Assembly (NCBI RefSeq): GCF_002837275.1
Contig: NZ_NXIF01000034.1
Location: forward strand, 1 to 59,015
Length of the DNA stretch: 59,015 nt
Reading direction: 5' to 3'
DNA from: Malaciobacter halophilus
GTDB taxonomy: Bacteria > Campylobacterota > Campylobacteria > Campylobacterales > Arcobacteraceae
The translations under genes and the position numbers were made by a program. This document shows, in pieces, positions 7,937 through 38,771 of the stretch. Positions within the stretch are counted from its first letter, which is position 1. Each line of letters starts with the position of its first letter. The notes under the pieces were generated by a model. That model had not been told where the DNA came from. It saw nothing but the letters and a program-made list of their open reading frames with translations, and searched no databases.

Positions 7937-7978
7937 AATGTATTGTAGTGTTTTTTTTTAAAAAAATGCATAAAAAAA

Positions 7979-7999
7979 GGAAGCAAATATTTTGCTTCC
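7979..7999 (-). terminator. Intrinsic terminator of the molybdoenzyme operon
   Basis: GGAAGCAAA pairs with TTTGCTTCC (9 bp) around a short loop. On the minus strand the hairpin is followed by seven T, so it ends the dba-dsbI-molybdoenzyme-torD transcript. A near-copy of this terminator and its flanks is found after rpsI (15262-15321). Confidence 0.85.
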
Positions 8000-8064
8000 T
8001 TATAAACTTTTAATAAAAACAGTCTTTTTTTAAAAACTAGTTGGGATTGTATTTTTTTGTCTAT

Positions 8065-8691
8065 TTATGCCACTGCTTTTAGAAAGTTTTCTTCTTTTTT
8101 CATAATCTCTTTTATAAATATACCGAATTCTTTTAAAATTGTTTGTTTTGAATTAATTATTATATCTTCGCTAAAATTATTAATCCAAGCTTTGGGATGG
8201 TTATTAAAGAACTCTTTTCTTATTTTAAGAAATTTATTTACTTCTTCTATATTATCAATTTTATATGATTCAATTATCAATAATGATAAATAGTAAAGAT
8301 ATTGAAACTCAAATCCTATAAAATCGTCGGGAAAGTGATTTAAGTTTTGAACTTCAATTCCTACTTGAGAATAATAATCTCTTACTTGGTAAGTGAATTT
8401 TCCCATAAGTAGATTTTCATTTAATCTATAAGAAGATTCAAAAGGCATAGCTAAAGGTTTTTCAGGTCCTACAAATAATCTATTATAGTCCCATCTTGCC
8501 TCATTTACCATATTATTATTTAACTCTTCAATCAATTGAATAAAGTTGCTATTTTTTAAATCCATGTTTAGGTCATTAGATTTTTCTTTAAAGGAAGATA
8601 CATTTTCGTTTGTCCATTGATTGAAAAAAAGTATTCTTAATAAATCATAGGCTTTTGACAAATCTTCGCAATCTTTAACTATCTTTTCCAT
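8065..8691 (-). CDS. TorD/DmsD-family molybdoenzyme maturation chaperone
   Basis: This cytoplasmic all-helical chaperone type binds the Tat signal of a DMSO-reductase-family enzyme and helps insert molybdenum cofactor. The 208-residue protein has the family core pattern, with the YNRLFVGPEKPLAMPFESSY segment (residues about 70-89) corresponding to the conserved (Y/F)xRLFxGP...PxESxY region. It is the last gene of the operon, 9 bases after the cytochrome b gene, and the upstream Tat-signal molybdoenzyme is its obvious client. The ATG is at 8691. Family placement is strong; a specific name is not justified. Confidence 0.85.
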   Translation of the reverse strand: MEKIVKDCEDLSKAYDLLRILFFNQWTNENVSSFKEKSNDLNMDLKNSNFIQLIEELNNNMVNEARWDYNRLFVGPEKPLAMPFESSYRLNENLLMGKFTYQVRDYYSQVGIEVQNLNHFPDDFIGFEFQYLYYLSLLIIESYKIDNIEEVNKFLKIRKEFFNNHPKAWINNFSEDIIINSKQTILKEFGIFIKEIMKKEENFLKAVA

Positions 8692-8700
8692 TTCGAATCC

Positions 8701-9429
8701 TTATTTTTCTTCTTCTTTGTTTTCTTCTTTTATTATATTCTGTTTTTTTAGTCTTTCATACCAATAAATATGGTGTTTTTTAATATGTTCAATACTCATC
8801 TCTCCTGTTTGGAACATTGCTTTAAATGCAGGTAAATTTGATGGTAATAATGCAAAAAGAACATGCACCATTAAAATAAATCCTAGCATTAAGAAACTAA
8901 AAGAGTGAAGAGTAGTTATAAGTTCAGCTGTTCTTAATGATAAAGCATCTATATAGATATTTTTATAAACTAGAATAAATCCTGTAACTATTAGTGCAGT
9001 AACAAAAAAATACATAGCCCAAGCTGCTGCTTTTTGACCTATGTTGTATTTTCCAAATTTTGCTGGTTTATTTTCAACATAATGTAGTTTCATTTGTTTA
9101 ATTCCATCTTTTATTGCTTCTATACCCCATTTTTCAGGCCATATACTTAACTCTTTTAATCTTCTTAGCATAACTACTGCAAATATAAATGCTGTTAATG
9201 CTAATAAAAATCCACTTACCCAATGTAGTGTTCTAAAAATCATTAGTCCTGTTATTAAAGGCTCATTGTTTTTTAGTACTACACTTGCAGGATAACCTAC
9301 ATAGTAAGCTAAAAAGCTAAATGTTTTAGAAAAAAATGGTAACCCCGTTATAATTAATGTTATTGTTTGTATTAATATAAACTTGTGAGTTGTCATTATC
9401 AATGGATGATACGCTTTTACTGTTTTCAT
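8701..9429 (-). CDS. Formate-dehydrogenase-gamma-type cytochrome b membrane subunit
   Basis: A dihaem cytochrome b anchor that would pass electrons between the quinone pool and the adjacent iron-sulfur subunit. Four hydrophobic helices are visible (about residues 17-38, 64-88, 133-155 and 172-193), with histidines suited to haem ligation in THKFI, RTLHW, TLHSF and MVHVL. The C-terminal pattern NLPAFKAMFQTGEMS followed by HHIYWYE is typical of FdnI/FdoI relatives. The family also serves other molybdoenzymes, so formate is not proven as substrate. It sits between the ferredoxin subunit (22-base gap) and the TorD-like gene. Confidence 0.85.
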   Translation of the reverse strand: MKTVKAYHPLIMTTHKFILIQTITLIITGLPFFSKTFSFLAYYVGYPASVVLKNNEPLITGLMIFRTLHWVSGFLLALTAFIFAVVMLRRLKELSIWPEKWGIEAIKDGIKQMKLHYVENKPAKFGKYNIGQKAAAWAMYFFVTALIVTGFILVYKNIYIDALSLRTAELITTLHSFSFLMLGFILMVHVLFALLPSNLPAFKAMFQTGEMSIEHIKKHHIYWYERLKKQNIIKEENKEEEK

Positions 9430-9451
9430 AATCTTTCTCCAATCTATTAAG

Positions 9452-10027
9452 TTAAATTTTTAGTGTAAATTCTTTTCTTTTCATACCTGTTACAAATTTT
9501 GGATAAAATCGTGTTGATGGTACATAAGAATTTGCTTTAAATCCAACAACTTCTTTTTCCATTCCTGCTCTATTGGCTAAATCTGTTTCAATGATGCTTA
9601 ATACACCCATAGGACATGCTGTTACACAAGCAGGAAGTTCACCTCTATCAAGTCTTTCAGCACACATATTACATTTTTGAGCTTTATTTTCTTGACCTAA
9701 TAAAGTAATAGCATTATATTCACAACTTTGAGCACAGTAACCACAACCAATGCACTTATCTCTATTTAACTCTACAATACCATCTTCTCTTACTGTATAT
9801 GCTTCTGCTGGACAAACTTCTGCACAAATTGGATTTTCACAGTGGTTACATGAATGTGTTAAAAATAGACTTTTAATGTTTCCATTTTGAACTACTTCAT
9901 ATTCGTCAACTTTTCTCCAATTTATTTCTGGTTCTTGCTTATGATAAGTTTGACACGCAACTTCACAGGCTTTACATCCTATACAAAAATCTTGGTCAAA
10001 TAGAAAACTTTTTCTTACTTTTTTCAT
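9452..10027 (-). CDS. Four-cluster [4Fe-4S] electron-transfer subunit of a molybdoenzyme
   Basis: A 191-residue ferredoxin-type subunit of the DmsB/PhsB/FdhB family. Sixteen cysteines fall in four groups: CIGCKACEVAC, CNHCENPICAEVC, CIGCGYCAQSC, and CNMC with CVTAC. These would hold four [4Fe-4S] clusters linking the catalytic subunit to the cytochrome b. There is no membrane anchor, consistent with a peripheral periplasmic subunit carried out by the Tat system together with the catalytic partner. The ATG follows the molybdoenzyme stop by 11 bases with a GGAAT ribosome-binding element. Confidence 0.9.
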   Translation of the reverse strand: MKKVRKSFLFDQDFCIGCKACEVACQTYHKQEPEINWRKVDEYEVVQNGNIKSLFLTHSCNHCENPICAEVCPAEAYTVREDGIVELNRDKCIGCGYCAQSCEYNAITLLGQENKAQKCNMCAERLDRGELPACVTACPMGVLSIIETDLANRAGMEKEVVGFKANSYVPSTRFYPKFVTGMKRKEFTLKI

Positions 10028-10038
10028 TTTATATTCCT

Positions 10039-12366
10039 TTATGCTTTTTCAACTTCAATAAATGATGCAGTATATGTTGAACCTTGTCCTAAATCACTAA
10101 TACCATCACTACATAAAATATTAGCTCCTGTATCTGTTTTTGTAACTTTGCACCAAATATTATTCCATGCATAAGTAATGCCAGGATTCATCTCAGTTGA
10201 AATTCTAACTCTAAAAAATGCTTTACCTTTTTCGTTTCTAGCACATACAACAGTACCCTCTTTTATATTTCTTGAATTTGCATCTACTTTATTCATAAAT
10301 AGTTCTGGGTAACCATCATATAATACTCTTGGTAGAATATATTTATTTGTTCCCCAATTTGAATTATTTTGTAGTTGTGTTCCAGGAGTCATAAAATATA
10401 ATGGATATTTTTTTAGATAACTTTTTCCAAATTCATTTTGTGCTTCATAATAATCCCAATCTGTTTCAAGGTCAATAACTGGATGAAATCCTGAATCTTT
10501 AAAATATTGAGAATAAAGTTCTGCTTTTCCAGAAGGTGTTTTAAATTTAAGATCTGTTGGTTTACAATATGGATAATAAGGAAAATGCTCTTTCATTGTT
10601 TCTACTGTTCTTATAGGTTTTACTTGTCCTTCTTTTACTAATCTTTCGTAAGTTATTCCTTGTTTCTTACTAAAAGGAGTATCTAGCATCTTTTTTATAA
10701 CTACTTTTGGATCATTGATATTAAAACATTCATCTGTATATCCCATAGCTTTTGCAATTCCATTGAAAATTTCTAAATTAATTTTACTCTCACCAACTAA
10801 TTTTGCTGCTGCTGCGTTATAACAAACATAACCAGAAATTTGGTCATTTTGAACATCTTCAGATTCTAAAAAAGTTCCTGCAGGTAGAACTAAATCTGCA
10901 TAATCAACAGTATCCGTATGGAAAGGGTCTAATACAATTAAATAAAAGTCATCATCTTCCATTAATCTTTTTTTAATTAAATCAGAGTTTGGTGCAGTAG
11001 TAATCATACTAGTGTTATAATGTATAACTGCTCTTAAAGGAGTAGGAAGAGTTACTTCTTTATAAACTTGAGATTCTGTATCTAAACTTGTTGGGTTATT
11101 GAGTCTTAAGGCTCTACCAAATTGTACATAATTTGCAGTTTGTCTTTTGATTTTTTCTCCATTTTCATCTTTTGGAGATAAATCAGGCATTACTTTACTA
11201 AAGTCATAGCATGGATTTAAGTTTGTGTAAGCCCAAAATAGTCCAGCACCTTTTTTGTTTAATGCTCCTACTAAAACAGGTAAAAATGTAACTGCTCTAA
11301 CAAGTCTAGCTCCATTAAAGTGTCTTTGACCACCATCACCATGGGCAATTGCAGGTCTTTTAGCCGCTGCATATATTTTTGCAAACTCAATAATCTCTTC
11401 TGGCGTAATTTCACATGCTTTTGCTAACTCTTCTAATGAATACTCTTTAGTCTCTTTTACTAATTCATCAAAACCAAGCGCATATTTAGATACAAACTCT
11501 TTATCATATAAGTTTCTTTCAATAAGAACTTTACATACACCTAAACAAAAATAAGGGTCTGTTGAAGGTTTTAGTTGTATAAACATATCTGAATTATTTG
11601 CCATTGGCGTTCTAACAGAGTTTATAGTAACTAATTTACCTCCATTTTTTCTTCTTACATCTTGACCAAATCTAGCCCAGTGTACAGCTGTATAAGCTTC
11701 ATTTGAACCCCATGTAACATATAAATCTGAATCCACTGTTTCAAGCATATCTTTTGAATATGGTGTACCAATAACACTTGGAGTTCCTTGATATCTTGGC
11801 CAATCACATGGATTTCTAACTAATCTTGTTGCACCAATTTTTTCAAGTAAATTACCAGGAGCGATAGTTTTTGAGATGTGACCTTCATTACCAGAATAAA
11901 CCATTTCTCCAATAGCTTCTCCACCATATTTATTTTTAATTTCAGTTAATTTTTTTCCTGCAAGTTTAAAAGCTTCGTCCCATGAGATTCTCTCCCATTT
12001 ACCTTCTTTTCTTTTTCCTACTCTTTTCATAGGGTATAGTATTCTATTTGGCTGATATAAATATTCTCTATAAGTATTACCTTTTACACAAGGATGACCT
12101 TTTGTAACAGGATGCGCTTTATTTCCTTGAATATCTATCATTACACCATTTTGTACTTCTGCAACTAAAGAACATGCATCTCTACAGTTTCTAGGACATG
12201 TTACAAAATGATATTCAGATGCGCCATTTGTTTGAGTGGGTTTATAATCTACCTTATCATATTTTGTAGATGTATATGACATTCCAAATAGTGGTACACT
12301 AACTAAACATGCAGTAGTTCCTTTTACAAAACTTCTTCTACCATTATTAATATTTGAAGCTCCCAT
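10039..12366 (-). CDS. Tat-exported molybdopterin oxidoreductase (DMSO reductase family), substrate unknown
   Basis: The catalytic subunit of a periplasmic respiratory molybdoenzyme. A Tat signal (NNGRRSFVKGT) opens the protein. Four cysteines for an N-terminal [4Fe-4S] cluster follow in CPRNCRDAC (residues 57, 61, 65) and HPCVKG (93). The segment at the usual molybdenum-ligand position reads NPCDWPRYQG (Cys187, Asp188), so the ligand could be Cys or Asp. Middle segments such as DGGQRHFNGARLVRA resemble DmsA. I chose ATG 12366, with AGAAGGA 8 bases upstream, over the ATG 21 bases earlier, which would only lengthen the n-region of the signal. Substrate (formate, S-oxide, tetrathionate or other) is open. 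Confidence 0.85.
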   Translation of the reverse strand: MGASNINNGRRSFVKGTTACLVSVPLFGMSYTSTKYDKVDYKPTQTNGASEYHFVTCPRNCRDACSLVAEVQNGVMIDIQGNKAHPVTKGHPCVKGNTYREYLYQPNRILYPMKRVGKRKEGKWERISWDEAFKLAGKKLTEIKNKYGGEAIGEMVYSGNEGHISKTIAPGNLLEKIGATRLVRNPCDWPRYQGTPSVIGTPYSKDMLETVDSDLYVTWGSNEAYTAVHWARFGQDVRRKNGGKLVTINSVRTPMANNSDMFIQLKPSTDPYFCLGVCKVLIERNLYDKEFVSKYALGFDELVKETKEYSLEELAKACEITPEEIIEFAKIYAAAKRPAIAHGDGGQRHFNGARLVRAVTFLPVLVGALNKKGAGLFWAYTNLNPCYDFSKVMPDLSPKDENGEKIKRQTANYVQFGRALRLNNPTSLDTESQVYKEVTLPTPLRAVIHYNTSMITTAPNSDLIKKRLMEDDDFYLIVLDPFHTDTVDYADLVLPAGTFLESEDVQNDQISGYVCYNAAAAKLVGESKINLEIFNGIAKAMGYTDECFNINDPKVVIKKMLDTPFSKKQGITYERLVKEGQVKPIRTVETMKEHFPYYPYCKPTDLKFKTPSGKAELYSQYFKDSGFHPVIDLETDWDYYEAQNEFGKSYLKKYPLYFMTPGTQLQNNSNWGTNKYILPRVLYDGYPELFMNKVDANSRNIKEGTVVCARNEKGKAFFRVRISTEMNPGITYAWNNIWCKVTKTDTGANILCSDGISDLGQGSTYTASFIEVEKA

Positions 12367-12393
12367 AATATTTTCCTTCTTTTTCATGAAATT

Positions 12394-12423
12394 AAATACT
12401 TCTTCATTTAAGAAGAAGTATTT
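12394..12423 (-). other. Strong hairpin between dsbI and the molybdoenzyme gene
   Basis: AAATACTTCTTC (12394-12405) pairs perfectly with GAAGAAGTATTT (12412-12423) around a 6-base loop. On the minus strand it comes directly after the dsbI stop and is followed by AATTTCATG, not by a T-run, so it is not a normal terminator for dsbI. It could protect a processed mRNA end or set different expression levels of dsbI and the enzyme genes. Confidence 0.55.
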
Positions 12424-12425
12424 TT

Positions 12426-13934
12426 TTATTTAAGTATATAAAGTTTATTTTTGCCATCTTGGTAACTAACTATATTGATATTTCCATCAACAAAATCAAT
12501 AGCTCTTGCATTTGTTATTTTGCTTGGGTATGAATATGTTTTCACAATTTCTTCAGTTTTAGGATTAATCTGTAAAATTGTGTTGTAGTTTTTACTTAAT
12601 GCATATAACATACCATCTTTTTTGGCAAGTCCAGTAATGTAGTAATCACCTAATCCTTTATTATTTCTTGTTTGTATATTTGAAGCTAAAGTTGGTGTAT
12701 ATTCTCCAGATAGAACCCCATCAATATTTGATTGTTTTATAACAACAAAATTCTTTTGTAAGTTACTTGGAACACTAATTGTATAACTATAATCTCCTAA
12801 GCTTACGAAGCTATTTACATAGTTTGTATTTGCTCTTACTGTTCTAAAAGAGTTTTTCTCAATAGCGACAAATTTATCAGCACCCTCTTTAAAGTGTGCA
12901 AATCCTTCTACTTCATCAGCATTTACAGGATCATATTTTACAATTGCATAAGTTTTATTTGTTCCCATAATTTTTATATTTTCATTATCCATAATATCAA
13001 TATCTGCAAAATTTGTCATAAATGGGAAATAGAAACTATCTAAAATTAAATGTGTATGAATATTGTTTAAATCTTTATTTGTAAGATACATTCCCCAATC
13101 TTGAGTTGCAATGGCAAATTGATTAGTTTTTTTATTAAATCTAATACCACTAATAGGTGAATTTAAATCAAGATTAATATTTTTTTCTGATACTAAATTT
13201 AGTTTAGTTGTTATATGTAAAGGTGAATTATTTACATTATGGTCAAACTCCATGTAATTAGCTTTTTGCGCTGGTAAATCAGGAGTATCTACACCAAATG
13301 GACCTCTCCATGTTGGAGCAGAAAATGCATTTGGTAATAAACTACTCCAACTATTATACTTAGGATTAAAAGTAAATCTAGCTGGTGAATCAGGTGCAGT
13401 AAAAGGTGGTGGTCCAGCTGCAATAAAGGCTTGTACTGCATTGGAAGTTGTTACTACCATAAATGTAACAAATGCAAACTTATTTACTTTTGTTAAATTT
13501 CTATAGTTTAATTTTACTAAAACTTCTTGGTCTGTTTTTAAATTAGCAAAAGCTAGAATTAAACCAAGTACAATTAAAACAGCCCAAAAAACTATTCCAG
13601 CCCAAATTTGTGTATGAATATTAAAAATTGGTAATGCTTGACCTTGTCCTATATCCATTTGAGCATACCATCCTAAATGCCAAAAAGCATTCCAAATACC
13701 AAAGGCAGAAACCATTATAATAAGAGCTAAATATTTCATTCTTAGACCATATCTTATTATAAATAAAGCTCCTGCTGCTACAACAATCATATTAATTCTA
13801 AGTGCCCAACAACTTGTACAAGGTGCATCTCCTAAGATGTAACCAAATATCATGTTAGCAACGGCTACTGGCCCTGCCATAACACCTAAAACTGCAAAAG
13901 ACATAAGTACATATAAATTTATATTTTTTCTCAT
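12426..13934 (-). CDS. dsbI: DsbI/DsbB-type thiol oxidoreductase with C-terminal beta-propeller-like domain
   Basis: Residues 1-175 contain about five hydrophobic helices of the DsbB fold, with one CTSC pair (Cys39, Cys42) in a periplasmic loop followed by the conserved WALR. Residues about 190-502 form a soluble, repetitive beta-strand region like the propeller of Campylobacter DsbI. DsbI proteins pass electrons from a periplasmic DsbA-type protein to quinones. I find no other cysteine in the 502 residues, so the second periplasmic pair of classical DsbB is missing. The ATG has AGGAG 7 bases upstream and follows the small dba-like gene by 9 bases, the same order as dba-dsbI of Campylobacter jejuni. 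Confidence 0.82.
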   Translation of the reverse strand: MRKNINLYVLMSFAVLGVMAGPVAVANMIFGYILGDAPCTSCWALRINMIVVAAGALFIIRYGLRMKYLALIIMVSAFGIWNAFWHLGWYAQMDIGQGQALPIFNIHTQIWAGIVFWAVLIVLGLILAFANLKTDQEVLVKLNYRNLTKVNKFAFVTFMVVTTSNAVQAFIAAGPPPFTAPDSPARFTFNPKYNSWSSLLPNAFSAPTWRGPFGVDTPDLPAQKANYMEFDHNVNNSPLHITTKLNLVSEKNINLDLNSPISGIRFNKKTNQFAIATQDWGMYLTNKDLNNIHTHLILDSFYFPFMTNFADIDIMDNENIKIMGTNKTYAIVKYDPVNADEVEGFAHFKEGADKFVAIEKNSFRTVRANTNYVNSFVSLGDYSYTISVPSNLQKNFVVIKQSNIDGVLSGEYTPTLASNIQTRNNKGLGDYYITGLAKKDGMLYALSKNYNTILQINPKTEEIVKTYSYPSKITNARAIDFVDGNINIVSYQDGKNKLYILK

Positions 13935-13943
13935 AAAGAACTC

Positions 13944-14114
13944 CTATAAATTAAATGCAGGTAATACATTATATTGAATATCAATTGCATAGAATACAAA
14001 AGCGACTAATATTGCGGTAAAGGCTAATAAATTAAAAGCCAACTTCTCTTTTTCTGGTTTTTTATACACCAGATACGATACATACAGTAATAAACATAAT
14101 TCTAGGAATTCCAT
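13944..14114 (-). CDS. dba: Dba-like small membrane protein encoded upstream of dsbI
   Basis: A 56-residue protein that starts MEFLELCLLLYVSYLVYKK and continues with a second hydrophobic stretch, AFNLLAFTAILVAFVFYAI. This predicts two membrane helices joined by a basic turn (KKPEKEK). The ATG at 14114 is preceded by a near-perfect AGGAGG ribosome-binding site. In C. jejuni a similarly small protein, Dba, is encoded just before dsbI and is needed for DsbI production; name and role here rest on size, topology and gene order rather than on residue identity. It is the first gene of the operon and directly faces the regulator gene. Confidence 0.7.
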   Translation of the reverse strand: MEFLELCLLLYVSYLVYKKPEKEKLAFNLLAFTAILVAFVFYAIDIQYNVLPAFNL

Positions 14115-14139
14115 TAATTACCTCCTCTTATTCTCTAAA

Positions 14140-14393
14140 CTTAAATATTAATTAATTAATTAAGTAGTAATATATTTTAACAATATTCTATTTTTTTTCA
14201 TATAAAACACTATTTTTTATCTATTACTATATAAAAAGACGCTATTATTAAAAGTAGTAAATCCTTATATATAGCTTATCTAAGCTTAAAGCTTAAATAT
14301 TAATTAATTAATAAAGTAATTATATATTTTAATAATATTGAATACTATACAAAAAATGCTATGTTATGTCTATTAATATACAAAAAATGCTAT
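14140..14393. repeat. Imperfect tandem duplication of about 110-150 bp in the dba/araC intergenic region
   Basis: The segment beginning CTTAAATATTAATTAATTAA at 14140 recurs at 14292 (offset 152). The two copies stay alignable through the AT-rich block TATATTTTAA(C/T)AATATT and through two operator-like motifs each (14201 and 14228 in copy one; 14346 and 14377 in copy two). This is the whole content of the roughly 300-base gap between the divergent dba and araC genes. Confidence 0.75.
14346..14393 (+). promoter_or_regulatory. Repeated operator-like motif upstream of the AraC-type gene
   Basis: TATACAAAAAATGCTAT occurs exactly twice, at 14346-14362 and 14377-14393, 31 bp apart (about three helical turns). 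Diverged forms are at 14201-14213 (TATAAAACACTAT) and 14228-14245 (TATATAAAAAGACGCTAT). Direct-repeat sites are typical for AraC-family activators, so these are likely binding sites of the adjacent regulator. The last copy ends 28 bases before the araC start, which suggests autoregulation. Confidence 0.6.
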
Positions 14394-14421
14394 AGTTCAA
14401 AATTTAGAGGAGATGCAAAAT

Positions 14422-15252
14422 ATGAAATCACTTAATTTATCTAATTATAATTTGCACATAGAAAAAGTATTAGATGAAATTGAATGTAATTTAAATCATA
14501 ATTTATCAATTGAAAAGCTTTCTCATTTGGCAGGTTATTCACCTTTTCATTTTCAAAGATTGTTTAAAGATTATGTTGGAGAAAGCGTTCATCAATATAT
14601 AAAAAGATTAAGAGTAGAAAAAACTGCGTTGATGTTAAAATATCAATACAATAATGTAACAGACTCAGCAATAAGAACAGGTTTTAATAATAATATTTCA
14701 CTTACTAGAGCTTTTAAGAGTATTTATAACTGTTCTCCTAAAGAGTATAAAGATAGATTTCGTACATTTAATAAAAAATATGACACTCCATCTTTTAAAG
14801 TTGTAAATATTGATGATTTTAAGGTTTTCTTTGTACGAGTATGTGGAGATTATCACTACTCAGAAAGAGCGTCCTGGATGGAAGTAGAGAATAATTTTTG
14901 TGAATTATCCCAAAATAATCTACAATATATATCAATTTGCTATAACGAACCATCAATTACTCTTCAAAAAACAAACTTAAGATACGAAGCTTGCATACTA
15001 TTTGAAAAAAATAAACATTCACATATTGCAAATTTACCAATAAAAACTATAAGAGGTGGAAAATATGCTAAATTCTCTTTTACGGGTACTTTAGGAGAAT
15101 TTGACAATTTCTTCAATATTGTATTTGATACTTTTTATCATGATAAGAATTATCAAATATCATTAAAACCATCTTTTCAACTTCATCATAATTCATATAG
15201 AGATTTATTATTTGGTACTACGACAACTGATTTGTTTATACCTATTGATTAG
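14422..15252 (+). CDS. AraC-family regulator with GyrI-like effector domain
   Basis: A transcription regulator with two N-terminal helix-turn-helix motifs (residues about 10-105, including LSHLAGYSPFHFQRLFKDYVG and the second motif ending CSPKEYKDRF). Its C-terminal half (about 115-276) has the beta-rich pattern of GyrI-like small-molecule-binding domains, as in Rob and SoxS-type fusions. I place the start at ATG 14422 because GAGGAG touches the upstream ATG at 14413 with no spacing but is about 8 bases from the second. It diverges from the dba-dsbI-molybdoenzyme operon, its probable target. The effector is unknown. Confidence 0.8.
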   Translation: MKSLNLSNYNLHIEKVLDEIECNLNHNLSIEKLSHLAGYSPFHFQRLFKDYVGESVHQYIKRLRVEKTALMLKYQYNNVTDSAIRTGFNNNISLTRAFKSIYNCSPKEYKDRFRTFNKKYDTPSFKVVNIDDFKVFFVRVCGDYHYSERASWMEVENNFCELSQNNLQYISICYNEPSITLQKTNLRYEACILFEKNKHSHIANLPIKTIRGGKYAKFSFTGTLGEFDNFFNIVFDTFYHDKNYQISLKPSFQLHHNSYRDLLFGTTTTDLFIPID

Positions 15253-30569: not shown

Positions 30570-32039
30570 ATGGCAAAAGATGAGCTTAATGAAGCACTAG
30601 ACTTATTAGACTCTAAACTTAAAAAAGAGGGACTTTCAAGAAGGGACGCTTTTAAAGTTGCAGGTCTTGGGTCAGCTGCATTTCTTATGGGAGGAAATGA
30701 GGCACAAGCAGCTGTATCTGCAAAAGCTAGTGATGTTAAAGCAAAAATTGTAATTGTTGGTGGAGGACTTGCTGGAGTTTCTACTGCTGCTAAACTAACT
30801 AATTCACTATCAAATCCAGATATTACTATTATTGAACCAAATCCAAAATCAGTATCATATCAACCAGGAAATACTTTAGTTGCATCTGGTGTTTATACAA
30901 AAGAAGATGTGATGTATGATACAAAAGATTTTATTCCTAATGGCGTAAAACTTATTAAAGATAAAGCAGTAGATTTTAATCCTGATAATAATAAATTAAC
31001 AATTGGTTCAGGTGAAGAGATTACATATGATTATTTAATTATTGCTGCAGGACTATCACTTGATTTTGGAAGAATTAGAGGTTTAGAAGAGATTGGTGAA
31101 GCAAAAAGTGTTGGAAGTGCTAAAAAAATTCTTGATACTTTTGCAGATTCAGGTGTTTGTTCTATTTATAATGTAGATAGTGCAGTTAAGACATGGGAGC
31201 AAATGCAAAAGTTTGTTGAGGCTGCTAAGACTGGCAAAAAGAAAATGCAAGGAGTTTATACTCACCCAAATACTGCTATTAAATGTGGAGGGGCTCCTAA
31301 AAAAATTATGTATTTAACTAACTCTAGGCTTGTTGAAGCAGGAGCAAGAGATAATGCAGAGTTAACATTCTATCCAAATGGTTCTACAATGTTTGGTGTT
31401 CCAGAGTATCATGATGCAATTGTTGAACAGTTTAAACAAAGAGGAATGAAGTGGAACTATAAACATAATTTAGTTGAAGTTGATTTAGATAATAAAATTG
31501 CTACATTTGATAAAAAATGGCTTGAAAAAGGTGCATGGGACGAAGATTTAGAAGAGTATGACATGATATTAAAGCATGAAGATGTAAAAGTACCTTTTGA
31601 TTTATTACACATTACTCCTCCTATGATTGCTCCAAAAGAGATAGGAGATTCAGAAGTTGGTTCAGCAAAAGGTTGGATTCCTGTAAATAAACAGACATTA
31701 CAACATGTTAAGTATGACAATATCTTCTCTTTAGGTGATATTGCAGCAGTTCCAATGGGTAAAACTGGAGGAAGTGTAAGAAAGCAATATAAGGTTGTAG
31801 TTGATAATTTAATCTCTTTAATGGAAGGAAAACCTTTAACTTCTAAATATGAAGGTTATACAGTTTGTCCTTTAATTACTGATATTGGAAAAGTAATGCT
31901 TGCTGAGTTTAATTGGACAAGAAAACCTACTCCATCATTTCCTCTTGACCCAACACAAGAAAGATATATTTGGTGGTTATTAAAAGTATATGCATTAAAA
32001 CCAATGACTATGTATGGTATGTTATCAGGAAGAGCTTAA
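30570..32039 (+). CDS. Tat-exported sulfide:quinone oxidoreductase-type flavoprotein
   Basis: A FAD-dependent sulfide oxidase of the SQR/flavocytochrome c family. A Tat-like signal (LSRRDAFKVAG, residues 22-32) indicates a periplasmic location. The dinucleotide-binding motif VIVGGGLAGVS begins at residue 61, YQPGNTLVASG matches the SQR active-site region, and three cysteines (197, 239, 433) lie at the positions of the SQR redox cysteines. The ATP of the C-terminus is replaced by an amphipathic tail. The dihaem cytochrome gene 18 bases downstream could be an electron acceptor, recalling FccAB. SQR rather than FccB is favoured by the three cysteines. Confidence 0.83.
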   Translation: MAKDELNEALDLLDSKLKKEGLSRRDAFKVAGLGSAAFLMGGNEAQAAVSAKASDVKAKIVIVGGGLAGVSTAAKLTNSLSNPDITIIEPNPKSVSYQPGNTLVASGVYTKEDVMYDTKDFIPNGVKLIKDKAVDFNPDNNKLTIGSGEEITYDYLIIAAGLSLDFGRIRGLEEIGEAKSVGSAKKILDTFADSGVCSIYNVDSAVKTWEQMQKFVEAAKTGKKKMQGVYTHPNTAIKCGGAPKKIMYLTNSRLVEAGARDNAELTFYPNGSTMFGVPEYHDAIVEQFKQRGMKWNYKHNLVEVDLDNKIATFDKKWLEKGAWDEDLEEYDMILKHEDVKVPFDLLHITPPMIAPKEIGDSEVGSAKGWIPVNKQTLQHVKYDNIFSLGDIAAVPMGKTGGSVRKQYKVVVDNLISLMEGKPLTSKYEGYTVCPLITDIGKVMLAEFNWTRKPTPSFPLDPTQERYIWWLLKVYALKPMTMYGMLSGRA

Positions 32040-32057
32040 TTTAATAAAAGGAATAAA

Positions 32058-32708
32058 ATGCAAACAAAAAGAGTGTTATACCTAATTTTTATAGTTAGTT
32101 TTTTAGGAATAGGGCTACATGCAAAGGGCAATTACTCTTCAAAAGAGATATATGCATCAATGTGTTCAAAATGCCATGGTATTAAAGCAGAAGGAAATAT
32201 TAAAAAAGAAGCACCTGCTTTAAATAATATTGGATTAAATGAGTTGGAGATTAGTTTATATGATTTAAAAGGTGGGGCCTCTTACCAATCATCTGGTACT
32301 AATCATGATATTATGCAACATAATATGAAAAAGATAATTCAAAAAGGCATGGATTACAATTCAAAAGAGATGGCTAAATATATATTCTTTACATTTAATA
32401 AAGATGCAAAGAGTTATAAAAAAGGTAGTAAATATACAGTATCTCAAATTTATATGCAAATGTGTTCTAAATGTCACGGCACGAATGCACAAGGTAACCC
32501 AAATAAAAATGCTCCAGCATTAAATAATATGTTAGTGCATGACTTAGAGTTAGAGTTACAAGATATACAAAATAAAACTTTAACACAATCATCTGGTACT
32601 AATCATGATATTATGGAAAGAAATCATGAGATTATCGAGAAAAAAGGTATGAGTTACAGTCCAAAAGAGATGGCTGAATATATTCATACAAATTTTTATA
32701 AAAAATAA
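32058..32708 (+). CDS. Periplasmic dihaem cytochrome c with duplicated domain
   Basis: A signal peptide (residues 1-22) precedes two cytochrome c domains. Each has CSKCHG (haem ligation at Cys36/Cys39/His40 and Cys136/Cys139/His140, exactly 100 residues apart), the motif QSSGTNHDIM and a KGM(D/S)YxxKEMAxYI C-terminal helix, so the gene arose by internal duplication. The ATG has AAAAGGAA upstream and follows the flavoprotein gene closely. It probably carries electrons from sulfide oxidation toward a terminal oxidase; this is inferred from position. Confidence 0.88.
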   Translation: MQTKRVLYLIFIVSFLGIGLHAKGNYSSKEIYASMCSKCHGIKAEGNIKKEAPALNNIGLNELEISLYDLKGGASYQSSGTNHDIMQHNMKKIIQKGMDYNSKEMAKYIFFTFNKDAKSYKKGSKYTVSQIYMQMCSKCHGTNAQGNPNKNAPALNNMLVHDLELELQDIQNKTLTQSSGTNHDIMERNHEIIEKKGMSYSPKEMAEYIHTNFYKK

Positions 32709-32730
32709 AGCAGATATTCTGCTTTATTTT
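32707..32730 (+). terminator. Hairpin after the dihaem cytochrome gene
   Basis: AAAGCAG pairs with CTGCTTT around ATATT, followed by ATTTT. A short stem that begins at the cytochrome stop codon; probably a terminator or partial terminator before the small membrane gene. Confidence 0.55.
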
Positions 32731-32740
32731 GGATAGTAAA

Positions 32741-32980
32741 ATGAAATACTTTAAAAACTTAATTTTATTATATATAGTAATTTTTTTAATCTCGTCATTA
32801 GTAATACATCTTGATAAGTGGACTAAATATCCAGTTGAACATTTTAAAGCACTTTTAAATCATTCATCACCTTTTCATCCTTTTATATACTCTTTGATTA
32901 TATTTACAATAGTATTAGTAATAATAGTAGTATTACAATCAATAACAAAACTTCTAAAAAAACTATTTAAAAATAAATAA
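32741..32980 (+). CDS. Small two-helix membrane protein, function unknown
   Basis: A 79-residue protein with two hydrophobic helices (about 4-22 and 45-67), separated by a loop rich in His and aromatic residues (HLDKWTKYPVEHF...NHSSPFHPF). I take the ATG at 32741, preceded by GGATAG; a TTG 12 bases earlier is also open. No family is recognised. It lies between the SQR-cytochrome pair and the psr operon and may belong functionally to either. Confidence 0.6.
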   Translation: MKYFKNLILLYIVIFLISSLVIHLDKWTKYPVEHFKALLNHSSPFHPFIYSLIIFTIVLVIIVVLQSITKLLKKLFKNK

Positions 32981-33119
32981 ATATATAAATATTTAAAATC
33001 AACTAAAACAATAATGTAACTATAAAGTCACTTCATAAGAAAAAATAATGTTTAAAATAAAAATATTATTAAAAATACTTATAAAAATAACAAAAAAAGA
33101 GAAATTTTGAAAAAATTAG

Positions 33120-33164
33120 TGAATATTCATTCATAAATAAGAATAATTTATATTAACCTATGCT
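33120..33164 (+). promoter_or_regulatory. Possible promoter/operator of the psr operon
   Basis: The 226-base gap before psrA is very AT-rich. It contains a perfect 10-bp palindrome TGAATATTCA (33120-33129) and about 30 bp downstream a -10-like TATGCT (33159-33164). This geometry would suit a regulator bound near -40, but the motif is not one I can assign. Confidence 0.3.
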
Positions 33165-33206
33165 AAAGTTATAAGATTAATAAATAATTTTAAGAAGGAG
33201 TGAGAA

Positions 33207-35651
33207 ATGGAAGTTGAGATTTCACGAAGAAAATTTCTCCAAGGGACAGTTGCTTTATCGGTGATTGCAAGTTCAAGTGCAATCTGTAAAGATACTTCAA
33301 ATAAAGATAAAATTAGTTTTGGTACAAGAAAAAATTCTAATAATAAAGATGTAAAACTTGTACCAACTTTGTGTGAAGTATGTGTTAATAAATGTGCTGC
33401 ATTTGCAAGAGTTGAAAACAATATCGTAACAAAACTTGAGCCAAATCCATATTTCCCAAAATCTCAAAATATGCTTTGTGCTAGAGGAAATGCTGGTATA
33501 CAAGCTTTATATGACCCTGATAGAATAAAATATCCTTTAATTAGAGTAGGTAAAAGAGGTGATGGGAAATATAAAAGAGTAACATGGGATGAGGCATACA
33601 CTTATATTACAGAAAAGATGACAAAAATATTGGATGAAGAAAAAGATAATAGATCATGTTTTGGGTATTGTGCTGGAGAAGGTTTAGCAGAACATACATT
33701 TAAAACTTTTATGTCAAATAAAATTGGTTCATCTAACTTCGTAAATCACGCTTCTATTTGTCTTCAAACTGCTGTATCTGGATATGCATTAACAATTGGT
33801 AAGTATGGACAAGCTGATTTACAAAATGCAAAATATGTAATTATGGCAGGTGCTAATAGAGCAGAAGCAATTCTTACTCCTGATACTATGGATATTTTTA
33901 AAAGAACAAGAGGAAGAGGAACAAAGCTTGTTGTTGTAGATCCAAGATTTACAAATACAGCTATGCATGCTGATGATTATTTAGCAATAAAATCAGGAAC
34001 AGATTTAGCTTTTGTATTAGCATTAACATATCATGTAATTAAAAATGAATTATATAATAGAAAATATGTAAAAAACAATTTTTCAAATTTTGATAAATAT
34101 AAAGAGCATATATTAAATAGTGAATATACTCCTAAATGGGCAGAAAATATAACAGGGATACCTGCACATGAAATAGAAAAAGTTGCACAAGAGTTTATGG
34201 CTAATGCTCCTCAAGCAATATATTATCAAGGTAGAAGGTCAACATGGACAAAAAATGATTTTCAATTAAGACGAGCACAAGCAATATTTACAGCATTAGG
34301 TGGAGGAATAGATGTAAAAGGTGGTATTGTATTTGGAAAAAAACTACCATTGGGTAGCCACTATGTTAATGCACCATTATACTCAAATCCTAAGCCAAGA
34401 ATTGAAAAAGATGAAGCTAAAATTATAGGAGGAAGTGGTTCATGGATTGCATGGAGAAATATGATTTTAGAAGAAAGAACACCATATCCAATAAGAGGAA
34501 TGTTTGTTTATAAACAAAATCCAGTTTTATCTGTACCTCATGTTGAAAAAACAAAGCAGATGTTTAAAAAGATGGATTTAGTTGTAGTAATAGATACAAT
34601 GCCAAGTGATACTGCAATAATGGCAGATGTGATTTTACCAGAATGTACATATTTAGAAAGAGAAGACCCTGTTAAATCTTTTCCTGGTGTTGAGCCTTCT
34701 ATTGCACTTAGAAGAAAGGTAATTGAACCTATGTATGAAACAAAGCCAGTAATAGAGATTTTACATGGACTTGGTAAAAAACTATCTAAACCTCTTTTTG
34801 AAATAAGTAAAAAATATGATGAAGATCTTCAATATGAAATTGAAGGTTTATCAAAAGAAGAGATTGATGAGTTATATAAAGATAATGGATATGATTTAGC
34901 AGATGCTTTTGAACACTCTCAAGAACATATTAATAAAGAGATGGTTTTAGAAAAGTATGATGAAAAAGCATGGAATACATTAAGAACAAAAGGTGTGTTT
35001 TATCCTAAAATGTCAAAAAGTTTTAAAAAGTTAGATAATAATAAATTTAGATATTACAAAGAAAAAGAGAAGTTTTATACAGTATTAAAACTTGAAAATA
35101 AAGAGGATTCGGATGATATTGATACATGTATTAATCCAAGAGATATAGCAGAAATAAAAAGACTTTTCTCAACACCAACTAAGAAAATAGAGTGTTACTT
35201 AGAAAATCTTGCTAAAAAAGGAATTGACCCTATGCCTGTATGGCATCAAGAAGATTTTAAAAAAATACCAAAAGGTAAATTTAAATTTATTAGTGGAAGA
35301 CACTCTCAGTTTACTCAAAACTCAACAGCAAATAATGTAATGCTTTTAGAGTTAATGCCAGAAAATTTTATATGGATTAATAAAAAAGATGCAAAGAAAA
35401 ATGGCATAAATCATGGAGATGTTGTTGAGGTTCAAAGTAGTGCAGGAAAAATTCAAATAAAGGCTTTTCCTACGGATAAAATAATTGAAGATACAGTTTT
35501 TTATGTTCATGGTTTTGGTTCACAATCAACAGGAATGACATTTGCAAATAGAAATGGTGCAAGTGATAATGAAATCATAGAAGATGATATAGAACCAGTA
35601 TTTGGTAGTGCAATTATGCATGAAACAATTGTTTCTATTAGAAAGGTTTAA
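33207..35651 (+). CDS. psrA: Polysulfide/thiosulfate reductase-type catalytic molybdoenzyme
   Basis: The large subunit of a periplasmic molybdoenzyme of the PsrA/PhsA group. A Tat signal (SRRKFLQGT, residues 6-14) is followed by the [4Fe-4S] motif CEVCVNKC...LCARG (Cys56, 59, 63, 91). The probable molybdenum ligand is Cys185 in NHASICLQTAVSGY, the form found in PsrA, PhsA and Nap-type enzymes. Length 814. AAGGAG precedes the ATG. Followed directly by ferredoxin and NrfD-type subunits, the arrangement of Wolinella psrABC. Thiosulfate or polysulfide cannot be distinguished from sequence; the rhodanese gene downstream argues for a sulfane-sulfur substrate. Confidence 0.87.
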   Translation: MEVEISRRKFLQGTVALSVIASSSAICKDTSNKDKISFGTRKNSNNKDVKLVPTLCEVCVNKCAAFARVENNIVTKLEPNPYFPKSQNMLCARGNAGIQALYDPDRIKYPLIRVGKRGDGKYKRVTWDEAYTYITEKMTKILDEEKDNRSCFGYCAGEGLAEHTFKTFMSNKIGSSNFVNHASICLQTAVSGYALTIGKYGQADLQNAKYVIMAGANRAEAILTPDTMDIFKRTRGRGTKLVVVDPRFTNTAMHADDYLAIKSGTDLAFVLALTYHVIKNELYNRKYVKNNFSNFDKYKEHILNSEYTPKWAENITGIPAHEIEKVAQEFMANAPQAIYYQGRRSTWTKNDFQLRRAQAIFTALGGGIDVKGGIVFGKKLPLGSHYVNAPLYSNPKPRIEKDEAKIIGGSGSWIAWRNMILEERTPYPIRGMFVYKQNPVLSVPHVEKTKQMFKKMDLVVVIDTMPSDTAIMADVILPECTYLEREDPVKSFPGVEPSIALRRKVIEPMYETKPVIEILHGLGKKLSKPLFEISKKYDEDLQYEIEGLSKEEIDELYKDNGYDLADAFEHSQEHINKEMVLEKYDEKAWNTLRTKGVFYPKMSKSFKKLDNNKFRYYKEKEKFYTVLKLENKEDSDDIDTCINPRDIAEIKRLFSTPTKKIECYLENLAKKGIDPMPVWHQEDFKKIPKGKFKFISGRHSQFTQNSTANNVMLLELMPENFIWINKKDAKKNGINHGDVVEVQSSAGKIQIKAFPTDKIIEDTVFYVHGFGSQSTGMTFANRNGASDNEIIEDDIEPVFGSAIMHETIVSIRKV

Positions 35652-35653
35652 TT

Positions 35654-36295
35654 ATGGCTAATTATGCAATGGCACTTGATTATCAAAGTTGTATAAATTG
35701 TAAAGCGTGTGAGACTGCTTGCAAAGAAGAAAATGGTGTACAGTTAGGTGCAGATAAACAAAGAATTTGGGTTGGTATTGTAGAAGGAACAATTTTTGAT
35801 AAGTCTTATATAAATTTATATCCTTCTCAGTGTAACCATTGTGAAAATCCTCCTTGTGTAAGTGTTTGTCCTACAAATGCAAGTTATATTGCTAAAGGTG
35901 GAATTGTACAAGTTGATTATGAAAAATGTATTTTATGTAAAGGTTGTATGGAAGCGTGTCCTTATGATGCAAGATTTGTTGATGATACAAAAGTAGCTGT
36001 AGATAAATGTACTTTTTGTGATCACAGAATTGAAGAGTATGGAACAACTGCATGCCAAGCAACTTGCCCTACAAATGTGAGAATGTTTGGTGATTTAGAT
36101 GATGAGAATAGTGATTTAGTAAAACTTTTAAAAACAAAAAGATTTTTCTTTTTAAAACAGAAGCTAAATACTAGACCAAAACTTTTTTATATTGTTCCAG
36201 ATTCAGAAAGTTATGCAAGACAAAGTATCTCTCATGAAACAAAAATTTATAATTGGGATGAGTATTTATTAGAGTTTAAAGGTGTAAGGAAATAA
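35654..36295 (+). CDS. psrB: Polysulfide reductase-type ferredoxin subunit PsrB
   Basis: A 213-residue subunit with sixteen cluster cysteines in four sets: CINCKACETAC, CNHCENPPCVSVC, CILCKGCMEAC, and CTFC with CQATC. It would carry electrons between the NrfD-type membrane subunit and the molybdenum site. It lacks its own signal peptide and is presumably exported with PsrA. It starts 2 bases after psrA and ends 2 bases before psrC. Confidence 0.92.
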   Translation: MANYAMALDYQSCINCKACETACKEENGVQLGADKQRIWVGIVEGTIFDKSYINLYPSQCNHCENPPCVSVCPTNASYIAKGGIVQVDYEKCILCKGCMEACPYDARFVDDTKVAVDKCTFCDHRIEEYGTTACQATCPTNVRMFGDLDDENSDLVKLLKTKRFFFLKQKLNTRPKLFYIVPDSESYARQSISHETKIYNWDEYLLEFKGVRK

Positions 36296-36297
36296 TT

Positions 36298-37560
36298 ATG
36301 GAAAAGTATGCAATTGCTGGGCTTGAGATTAATAAGGCCTCTTTTAAAGAACTCTTTTTTAATAGAGTAATGTTTTTTTCATATATTTTAATATGCTTTG
36401 CATTTTATGGAATATATGAAATTTATGAATTAAGATATTTTACAGAAGTTGCAACTGCACACTCTATGGGTGTTGACCCAACAAATCCAGAGTTAAAAGA
36501 AGCTATGAGAGCTGCAATTTTTGGTAATGTAGGTGAAGTTAGTAGAGAAGTTCCATGGACACTTTTTATTTCTAATTATATGTACATGATTTATACAGGA
36601 AGTGGGATAATTTTTTTAGTAGCATTAGCAGAACTATTGAATTTTAAAATAGTAGAAAAATTAGCTGCATCATTTATGGTTTTAGGGCTTGCAATGGTTC
36701 TTGCAGGACTTTTTACTATTGCTACTGATTTAAATATGTTAAATATGAAATGGATGTTTTTAGACCCAAATACAAATGCAGGTATGTGGCTTATGCTTCC
36801 ATTATATTTTACGTATATTCCTTTTGTTATGTTTGAAATCTATTTAATACTTACAAAAAAAAGAGAGTTAGCTAAAAAATTGGCTTTTCCTATTTTAGTG
36901 TTAAGTATTGGTGTAGATTTAGTTGAGTATTACATTCAAGCAAAACTATTTTCAATGAATACAGCTAGGCATTTATGGACAGAGTTTCCTGCTTTAATGT
37001 GGTATTTTATTATCTCTGCATTTGTTTCAGCACTTGGGGTAATGGGAGTTTTATCATATTTTGTTCATAGAAATAAAAAAGGTTATAAAGAGCTAATGTC
37101 ACTAATAAGAAAAAGCATACTATTTTTTATATTTGTATTAGCAATTTATGAAGTTGTTGGTTATTTGGTTATAGATAAAGACTGGGCATTTATAATTTTA
37201 TTTGGAGAGTTTAGATACTTATTCTTTGGAGGATATATTCTATTTGCATTAGTAATGCCATTTTTACTACTTATTAAACCAGATAAGTCATATATAATAT
37301 TAGCTTCAATCTCAGTTATTATAGGAGGATATATAGGAAGATATTTATTTGTATATGGTGGGAATGCCAATCCTTTAACAAATAGGTTTGGTGTAGGATA
37401 TGAGAAGTATGATTTTTATGGTGTTGCAACAAATTTTAATTATGTTAGCCCACATTTAGGTGAGATTTTTATTGTTCTTGGTTCAGTTGGTGTTGTAATA
37501 TTTATATACAAATTAGTTGATACATTATTTTCAATTAATAAACAAAGAGAAATTCATTAA
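36298..37560 (+). CDS. psrC: NrfD/PsrC-type membrane quinone-reactive subunit
   Basis: An integral membrane protein of 420 residues with about nine to ten hydrophobic helices and no haem-binding pattern. It belongs to the NrfD/PsrC family that exchanges electrons with quinol. The N-terminal 40 residues include a charged cytosolic segment (EINKASFKELFFNR) before the first helix. The C-terminal part has NPLTNRFGVGYEKYDFYGVATNF between the last helices. It completes the psrABC set. Confidence 0.88.
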   Translation: MEKYAIAGLEINKASFKELFFNRVMFFSYILICFAFYGIYEIYELRYFTEVATAHSMGVDPTNPELKEAMRAAIFGNVGEVSREVPWTLFISNYMYMIYTGSGIIFLVALAELLNFKIVEKLAASFMVLGLAMVLAGLFTIATDLNMLNMKWMFLDPNTNAGMWLMLPLYFTYIPFVMFEIYLILTKKRELAKKLAFPILVLSIGVDLVEYYIQAKLFSMNTARHLWTEFPALMWYFIISAFVSALGVMGVLSYFVHRNKKGYKELMSLIRKSILFFIFVLAIYEVVGYLVIDKDWAFIILFGEFRYLFFGGYILFALVMPFLLLIKPDKSYIILASISVIIGGYIGRYLFVYGGNANPLTNRFGVGYEKYDFYGVATNFNYVSPHLGEIFIVLGSVGVVIFIYKLVDTLFSINKQREIH

Positions 37561-37574
37561 TAAAAGGAGAAGTT

Positions 37575-38771
37575 ATGAGAGTTACTAAAATTTTAGCAAC
37601 AATTGCTTTAGTTTCAAGTCTATTTGTTGCAAATGCATTTGCAGGACAAGCAGAACTATTATCAAAGGCTAGTTCAAAGGTTCAAAAGCTTATTAAAGCA
37701 GATAATTTAGAAATAGTTGATTTTGAATATACAAAAAAAGCAATAGGAAAAGGTACAAAAAAAAGTGCAAGTGCAGTTTTAGTTGATGCAAGACCAGAAG
37801 CAAAATATAAAAAAAGCACTATTCCTTCAAGTATCAATATTCCAGATACAAAGTTTGAAGAGTATTTCCCACAATTAAAAGATACTGCAAAAAATAAAGA
37901 GATTATAGTTTATTGTGGTGGTTGGAAATGTGGTAAAAGTCCAAAAGTTGCATCTATGCTTAAGAAAAAAGGTTTTACAAATGTAAAATTATATCAAGCA
38001 GGAGAACCTGAATGGTTAAAAAAATCTTATCCTGAAGTATCTCTTGCTGTAATGAAAAGTGTACAAGGAAAAAATTCGGCTTTAATGGTAGATGCAAGAC
38101 CATATAAAAAAGTCTTACAAGAGACTATTCCTGGTTCAATTGCAATACCTGATACAAAACTTGATACATTAATAGGAAGATTCCCAGCTAACAAAGATGA
38201 AAAAATAGTAGTTTTTTGTGGAGGATTTAATTGTTCTAAATCACATAAAGTAGCTAATGCTTTACTTAAAAAAGGGTATAAAAATGTTTCTGTTTTTGCA
38301 GGAGGATTGCCTCAATGGAAAGAGGCTGGCTTAGCTACAACTGCATCGGCATCATCAAATACAGTAGTAAAAAGTGATGACAATGAACCAAAATTTAGTA
38401 AAAATAGTGTTAAATTAGGTCTTGATGAAGGTACAGTTGATGGAGAATGGTTTAAAAAATTGATTTTACAAAAAAATGTTCCTTCAAATATTCAAATTGT
38501 AGATGTTACTTCAAAAGAGGAGTTTAAGTCAGGACATTTACCAGGAGCAATAAATATTAATGCTGGAAAATTAAATGCAAAAGAGCTGTTAGAAAAGCTT
38601 CCAAAAGGTAAAAGCATAGTATTTAATTGTACAGCAGGTGGAAGATCACTAGAAGCTTGGACAAAACTGTATGATGCAAAAATAGATGTTTCAGAAATCT
38701 TCTATTTTGATGCAAATATAGATTGTAAAGGTACTAGTTGTGAAATTGAAGTAAATGAGCCATTAGGTTAA
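37575..38771 (+). CDS. Periplasmic protein with three rhodanese domains
   Basis: A signal peptide (residues 1-23) is followed by three rhodanese modules. The first (about 45-150) has the active-site loop YCGGWKCGKS (Cys114, Cys119). The second (about 155-255) has FCGGFNCSKS (Cys215, Cys220). The third (about 285-395) has FNCTAGGRS (Cys352). Rhodaneses carry sulfane sulfur as a cysteine persulfide; a periplasmic example, Sud of Wolinella, feeds polysulfide sulfur to PsrA. Position 14 bases after psrC suggests the same role here. The doubled-cysteine loops in domains 1 and 2 differ from domain 3. Confidence 0.88.
   Translation: MRVTKILATIALVSSLFVANAFAGQAELLSKASSKVQKLIKADNLEIVDFEYTKKAIGKGTKKSASAVLVDARPEAKYKKSTIPSSINIPDTKFEEYFPQLKDTAKNKEIIVYCGGWKCGKSPKVASMLKKKGFTNVKLYQAGEPEWLKKSYPEVSLAVMKSVQGKNSALMVDARPYKKVLQETIPGSIAIPDTKLDTLIGRFPANKDEKIVVFCGGFNCSKSHKVANALLKKGYKNVSVFAGGLPQWKEAGLATTASASSNTVVKSDDNEPKFSKNSVKLGLDEGTVDGEWFKKLILQKNVPSNIQIVDVTSKEEFKSGHLPGAININAGKLNAKELLEKLPKGKSIVFNCTAGGRSLEAWTKLYDAKIDVSEIFYFDANIDCKGTSCEIEVNEPLG

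Follow-up and report, generated by a model that had tools for sequence, protein, structure and literature searches.

What is a gene for a disulfide-forming membrane protein doing directly in front of the genes for a periplasmic molybdoenzyme? The question is raised by a block of six genes in a 59,015-nt contig of Malaciobacter halophilus (NZ_NXIF01000034.1, the whole of which is called the window here), which starts with dba and dsbI and continues with the catalytic subunit of the molybdoenzyme, a four-cluster ferredoxin (named MoA and MoB here, respectively), a cytochrome b and a TorD-type chaperone. We propose, with a probability of about 0.5, that the six genes specify an iron-sulfur molybdoenzyme complex in the periplasm, belonging to a hitherto unclassified subfamily, and a maturation kit with two stages, in which Dba and DsbI would oxidize MoA. 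The gene content, a near-obligate linkage of dba-dsbI with MoA, the separate clade formed by MoA, an exchangeable electron partner and conserved spare cysteines are direct observations. The role of DsbI in Campylobacterota is unsettled, and genomes that have DsbI almost only beside one enzyme, in addition to a general DsbB, name a candidate target. No paper describing this locus was found in the open-access literature searched. The genes of the block run from 14114 to 8065, with intergenic gaps of 9, 38, 11, 22 and 9 nt in the order from dba to torD:

13944-14114, minus strand: dba-like gene, small membrane protein of 56 residues (NF050061)
12426-13934, minus strand: dsbI-like gene, 502 residues (Pfam DsbB, NF050065)
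10039-12387, minus strand: moA, 782 residues, molybdopterin catalytic subunit exported by twin-arginine translocation (Tat), with a [4Fe-4S] cluster and a Cys ligand to Mo
9452-10027, minus strand: moB, 191 residues, ferredoxin subunit with four [4Fe-4S] motifs (Pfam Fer4_11)
8701-9429, minus strand: cytochrome b membrane anchor of the FdnI/b561 type, 242 residues (Pfam Ni_hydr_CYTB, 55 bits; TIGR01583, E=7e-17)
8065-8691, minus strand: torD, TorD/DmsD-type chaperone for Tat proofreading and cofactor insertion, 208 residues (Pfam Nitrate_red_del, 82 bits; TorD, E=8.5e-10)
7977-8001, minus strand: intrinsic terminator after torD, with an 11-bp stem, a 3-nt loop and a T run

The original prediction had described this gene order on one strand, and all six genes are present where it had placed them; the terminator that it noted at the end of the block exists as well, but at 8001-7977, just outside the range given. 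In moA, the ATG at 12366 is the better start, as it has a ribosome-binding site (AAGAAGGA) and close relatives also begin there, and it is probably the true one.

The names of the first two genes express homology. Dba matches NF050061 over its full length and at the expected position (E=4e-11), its 42.6 bits remaining below the cut-off of 90, and DsbI matches the Campylobacter DsbI model NF050065 over its full length (E=1.7e-124), with 415.9 bits against an equivalog cut-off of 800. Because both proteins score below the NCBI equivalog cut-offs, the earlier designation 'Dba-DsbI' holds as a statement of homology and not of equivalog identity. DsbI exceeds the Pfam cut-off for the DsbB domain (35.1 bits) and has the complete set of DsbI-type features, i.e. 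a DsbB-type membrane domain with a single CXXC (CTSC at residues 39–42, its only cysteines), no second cysteine pair, and a C-terminal beta-rich, propeller-like domain. The propeller was assigned from homology and strand pattern; the AlphaFold2 model of DsbI is of low confidence, with a mean predicted local distance difference test score (pLDDT) of 49. Separate genes for the DsbB-like part and the propeller replace a fused dsbI in most loci of the Campylobacteraceae, and one genome (G505) has a fused DsbI inside the split-DsbI clade. An ordinary DsbB is already common in the family to which this genome belongs: the DsbB family was matched in 80 of 104 Arcobacteraceae. This genome, too, has such a DsbB (C58), encoded beside a DsbA, and no second dsbI; DsbI is therefore an extra enzyme that comes with MoA.

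The block is not confined to the window's genome. MoA orthologues, searched for in other Campylobacterota, were identified at 26 loci in 25 genomes from three families, one genome (G558) carrying the locus on two contigs. Intact dba and dsbI, or dba with the split DsbB-like and propeller genes, lie directly upstream of moA in 24 of the 25 genomes. In the remaining one (G522) dba and most of dsbB are gone, and what is left is the propeller gene with the final residues of dsbB; this genome has two other DsbI genes elsewhere. Among the 104 Arcobacteraceae genomes, MoA occurs in three and DsbI in four, and all three MoA genes adjoin DsbI. Together with 44 genomes of the Sulfurospirillum family, the counts are six for MoA and seven for DsbI, all six MoA genomes having DsbI; the naive Fisher p for co-occurrence in these 148 genomes is 5e-10, a value that ignores kinship. 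The sole DsbI without MoA in these two families, in which DsbI is rare, belongs to G070. Across the order, 11 of 399 genomes have MoA, and DsbI stands beside it in each of the 11. When 77 loci of MoA relatives outside the clade were searched with a DsbB-type profile, there was no match. The MoA reading frame is interrupted in G397 and G534. The trees of MoA and DsbI agree on the main groups, and in both of them G491, a member of the Campylobacteraceae, joins the Sulfurospirillum family, so that the block is inherited, and moves, as a unit.

The surroundings of the block differ between genomes. In most Campylobacteraceae it is flanked by two conserved proteins of about 200 and 380 residues (L133 2277-4039 and the matching place in other loci of that family), the larger of which has no Pfam match. 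Next to a Sulfurospirillum block lies an array resembling clustered regularly interspaced short palindromic repeats (CRISPR; L130 9693-12824, the same as L012 2637-5768), with genes beside it that look Cas-like by eye.

Most other DsbI genes are solitary and have no consistent partner. Substrate hints were sought beside these copies, and no consistent neighbour emerged except selD/yedF next to three. In L209, L216 and L222 (Campylobacteraceae), an extra dba-dsbI copy closely follows genes that, judged by eye, resemble yedF/tusA and selD (selenophosphate synthase). Second, diverged copies of the split dba-dsbB-propeller set were noted in L136 (14546-16407), L161 (11221-13008), L165 (9534-11319) and L212 (4683-6468), near the molybdoenzyme block or elsewhere, and without a molybdoenzyme of their own.

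MoA is a member of the dimethyl sulfoxide (DMSO) reductase (MopB) superfamily, with the Pfam domains Molybdop_Fe4S4, Molybdopterin and Molydop_binding all above cut-off, the Tat motif GRRSFVKG, four Fe-S cysteines and a Cys at the Mo-ligand position. It remains below the NCBIfam cut-offs for DmsA/YnfE, PhsA, Fdh-alpha, TorA/BisC, NapA, TtrA, ArrA and DMSO type II. The best subfamily score, for TIGR02166 (DmsA/YnfE), is 288.5 bits against a cut-off of 777.7, followed by formate dehydrogenase (248.1/666), DMSO type II (206.7/985) and PhsA (205.6/694); the same library calls the genome's own PhsA, NapA and TorA above their cut-offs. In a tree of 74 proteins (ArrA, TtrA, SerA, AioA and PsrA not included), a single branch, with support 100 and a stem length of 0.97, separates the 23 uninterrupted MoA sequences from all other rows, DmsA, YnfE, TorA, NapA, FdhF, FdnG, NarG and PhsA included. 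Both checks suggested in the original prediction thus turn out positive, as the gene order recurs in 25 genomes of three families and MoA has a branch of its own among the subfamilies compared. The nearest row to the clade is a Terriglobia protein, about 38% identical and without DsbI nearby, and in a plasmid collection only relatives at about 30% identity were found.

Two assignments of MoA were rejected on the basis of the Mo ligand, which is Cys194 followed by Asp195. The formate dehydrogenases, nearest in fold, have [U/C]-His at this place (FdhF, FdnG and the genome's own enzymes), and the His is missing in MoA, while a Ser-ligated S/N-oxide reductase is ruled out by the Cys, the residue in DmsA, YnfE and TorA being Ser. 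The AlphaFold2 model of MoA (mean pLDDT 85) has the usual fold of the family, with FdhH, Nap and PsrA as closest structures (about 20% identity, Z 31–36). The substrate could indeed not be named, as had been anticipated: MoA matches no subfamily, its clade contains no enzyme that has been characterised, and no gene for sulfur, nitrogen or arsenic metabolism recurs consistently around the block. The clade represents a previously unclassified molybdoenzyme subfamily, and MoA most likely acts as a reductase, as suggested by its hydrogenase and quinol-type partners.

These partners are the variable part of the locus. A cytochrome b is found in five genomes (this one, G078, G065, G300 and G491), an NrfD-type quinol subunit after torD in 18 Campylobacteraceae, and the large subunit and Tat small subunit of a [NiFe] hydrogenase in two Sulfurospirillum-family genomes, G138 and G316 (the latter being L012, Sulfurospirillum sp. 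BB15). Because the small subunit lacks a C-terminal membrane helix, this hydrogenase seems to be soluble and could pass electrons straight to MoB. In all loci dsbI (or its remnant), moA, moB and torD are constant, and the 16 cluster cysteines of MoB are invariant in 23 of 23 sequences. DsbI is thus tied more tightly to the catalytic subunit than the quinone anchor is, and in this respect it behaves like TorD, a maturation factor. With one catalytic core and three electron suppliers, the locus clearly illustrates an exchange of respiratory modules around an unchanged maturation kit.

Among the exported products, MoA is the only one with clade-conserved cysteines that do not bind a cofactor. Such spare cysteines are found at positions 285, 325, 554 and 759 in 23 of 23 sequences, at 281 and 393 in 22 and at 522 in 21; Cys at 281, 393 and 522 is absent from all 51 other molybdoenzymes. 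The MoA proteins of split-DsbI Campylobacteraceae have five further cysteines, at 313, 399, 454, 494 and 564, in 16 of 16 sequences. The only genome in which Cys393 is lost, G522, is also the only one in which dsbB is lost from the block, a single observation. In the proposed scheme, TorD would guide cofactor insertion into MoA and its Tat export in the cytoplasm, and after export Dba and DsbI, the latter as a quinone-linked thiol oxidase, would form at least one disulfide in MoA, directly or via a DsbA, with the propeller domain perhaps serving in recognition. Electrons from quinol (through the b-type cytochrome or the NrfD-type subunit) or from H2 (through the [NiFe] hydrogenase) would pass via MoB to MoA, where the substrate would be reduced. 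Of the two explanations put forward in the original prediction, the one that the complex needs a specific disulfide is therefore favoured, because DsbI is kept whichever electron partner is present and because only MoA has conserved non-cofactor cysteines.

Several known systems resemble parts of the block or of this scheme. DmsABC, PhsABC, PsrABC and FdnGHI also combine a Tat-exported catalytic subunit with a [4Fe-4S] cluster, a four-cluster ferredoxin, a membrane anchor and a TorD-type chaperone; the present block differs from them in carrying dba-dsbI and in an anchor that can be exchanged even for a [NiFe] hydrogenase. In uropathogenic E. coli, the DsbL/DsbI pair and the sulfotransferase AssT are encoded together. 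AssT is reportedly the single substrate of that pair (Grimshaw 2008). The present case is similar in that a DsbB-like oxidase would be reserved for a single exported enzyme, but our block has no DsbL, its neighbour is a Tat molybdoenzyme and not a sulfotransferase, and its oxidase has a propeller. The DsbI proteins of C. jejuni and H. pylori share the DsbB-like domain, the single CXXC and the C-terminal propeller, and in C. jejuni a small Dba precedes; there, dba-dsbI and DsbI stand alone (PMC4460558, PMC3167755), unlike the MoA-linked forms, which make up clades separate from them. The amounts of the C. jejuni Tat molybdoenzymes NapA and TorA fall in the absence of DsbA1 and C8J_1298 (PMC8708908), so a dependence on Dsb proteins is possible for Tat molybdoenzymes in this group. 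These two enzymes depend on the general Dsb pathway, no dedicated dsbI having been described beside them, whereas MoA has dba-dsbI adjacent.

Several points weigh against an oxidation of MoA by DsbI. Both the disulfides in MoA and its role as the DsbI substrate are deduced from sequence, not observed, and several of the clade cysteines replace hydrophobic residues and may simply be buried. The number of cysteines was rejected as proof of disulfides, and alone it is non-diagnostic: equally many can occur in relatives that lack DsbI, and a MoA relative with no DsbI nearby (L014) has 25. No DsbA is encoded in the block, and the DsbI of C. jejuni reportedly interacts with neither DsbA1 nor DsbA2 and has been assigned tentatively to a reductive pathway (PMC12428200, a 2025 review). 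Furthermore, the MoA frame of G522 is open in spite of the loss of dsbB from the block, although two other DsbI genes are present in that genome.

The linkage could also have arisen by co-transfer without a direct substrate relation, if the conditions (anaerobic or iron-related) that call for dba-dsbI also call for the molybdoenzyme and both travel in one cassette, while DsbI serves other envelope proteins. We regard this as possible but rather doubtful. The patchy occurrence of the block, its movement between families and the solitary state of most other DsbI genes would all fit, as would the Fur regulation of dba-dsbI in C. jejuni (PMC3167755). Simple co-transfer does not readily account, however, for a linkage that outlasts the exchange of the electron partner and, in a large clade, the splitting of dsbI, that is kept in differing surroundings, and that adds DsbI to genomes already provided with a general DsbB.

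That DsbI is itself part of an electron route, passing thiol electrons to quinone alongside, or into, the molybdoenzyme complex, is unlikely. In the hydrogenase variant, which encodes no other quinone-linked membrane subunit and whose small subunit lacks the C-terminal helix, DsbI is retained and would be the only link to quinone; otherwise, the earlier suggestion that DsbI feeds electrons into the same quinone route found no positive support. DsbI is present nonetheless in the 23 of 25 genomes with a quinol-type subunit, DsbI-type enzymes reduce quinone, which is the opposite of what a reductase needs, and neither MoB, TorD nor the propeller has a conserved cysteine pair that could serve as a path. 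Quite unlikely, too, is a reduction or repair of the enzyme by Dba/DsbI instead of disulfide formation. Such a role has been proposed for C. jejuni DsbI, which was put in a reductive or isomerisation branch (PMC12428200), but the linked DsbI proteins keep the DsbB-type CXXC and the following Arg, and no DsbC- or DsbD-like gene is found in the block. A more far-reaching variant, which we consider very improbable, is that the substrate of MoA contains sulfur or is of the disulfide type, and that the thiol produced when MoA reduces it is re-oxidized by DsbI in a closed thiol/disulfide loop; if this were true, the hydrogenase variant would run from H2 via MoA, thiol and DsbI to quinone, a new kind of respiratory circuit. 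Oxidation of MoA by Dba/DsbI remains the preferred explanation.

The following regulatory features were identified in and next to the block:

14413-15252, plus strand: divergent AraC-type regulator gene (Pfam HTH_18, Cass2 and GyrI-like, i.e. with a GyrI/Cass2-like ligand domain)
14343-14361 and 14374-14392, minus strand: candidate operator in the shared promoter region, two copies of TAGCATTTTTTGTATAkTA
14289-14339 and 14137-14187, minus strand: dba promoter region, two AT-rich direct repeats of about 51 nt each, 90% identical
12394-12423, minus strand: 12-bp hairpin in the gap between dsbI and moA, a possible attenuator or mRNA processing site

The regulator gene belongs to the locus, and it holds the same position in the two nearest relatives, G078 and G065, in which the AT-rich repeats are also conserved. 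The two copies of the candidate operator are the only exact matches in the whole 2.75 Mb genome, which suggests that they are probably the operator of the divergent regulator; similar copies are found upstream in G078 and G065. The stem of the hairpin is identical in G078 and almost so in G065, and the corresponding gap of three Sulfurospirillum-family genomes (G316, G138 and G300) contains hairpins of unrelated sequence. In total, six of the seven fused-type loci have a hairpin at this place, with sequences that differ between lineages, and none was found in the dsbI-moA gap of G491. Such a hairpin could mean that the two parts of the block are expressed unequally, which, as far as it can be judged from sequence, would fit a catalyst and its client.

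Elsewhere in the window, a separate, apparently sulfur-related cluster is located at 30570-38771 on the plus strand. It encodes a Tat flavoprotein, a cytochrome c, a PsrABC-like molybdoenzyme of 814 residues without a strong NCBIfam match, a ferredoxin, an NrfD-type subunit and a multi-domain rhodanese. The genome as a whole contains at least 12 molybdopterin-family genes (G000 C31, C64; L172, L173, L175, L179), and four of these, for formate dehydrogenases, contain an in-frame TGA codon that apparently specifies selenocysteine.

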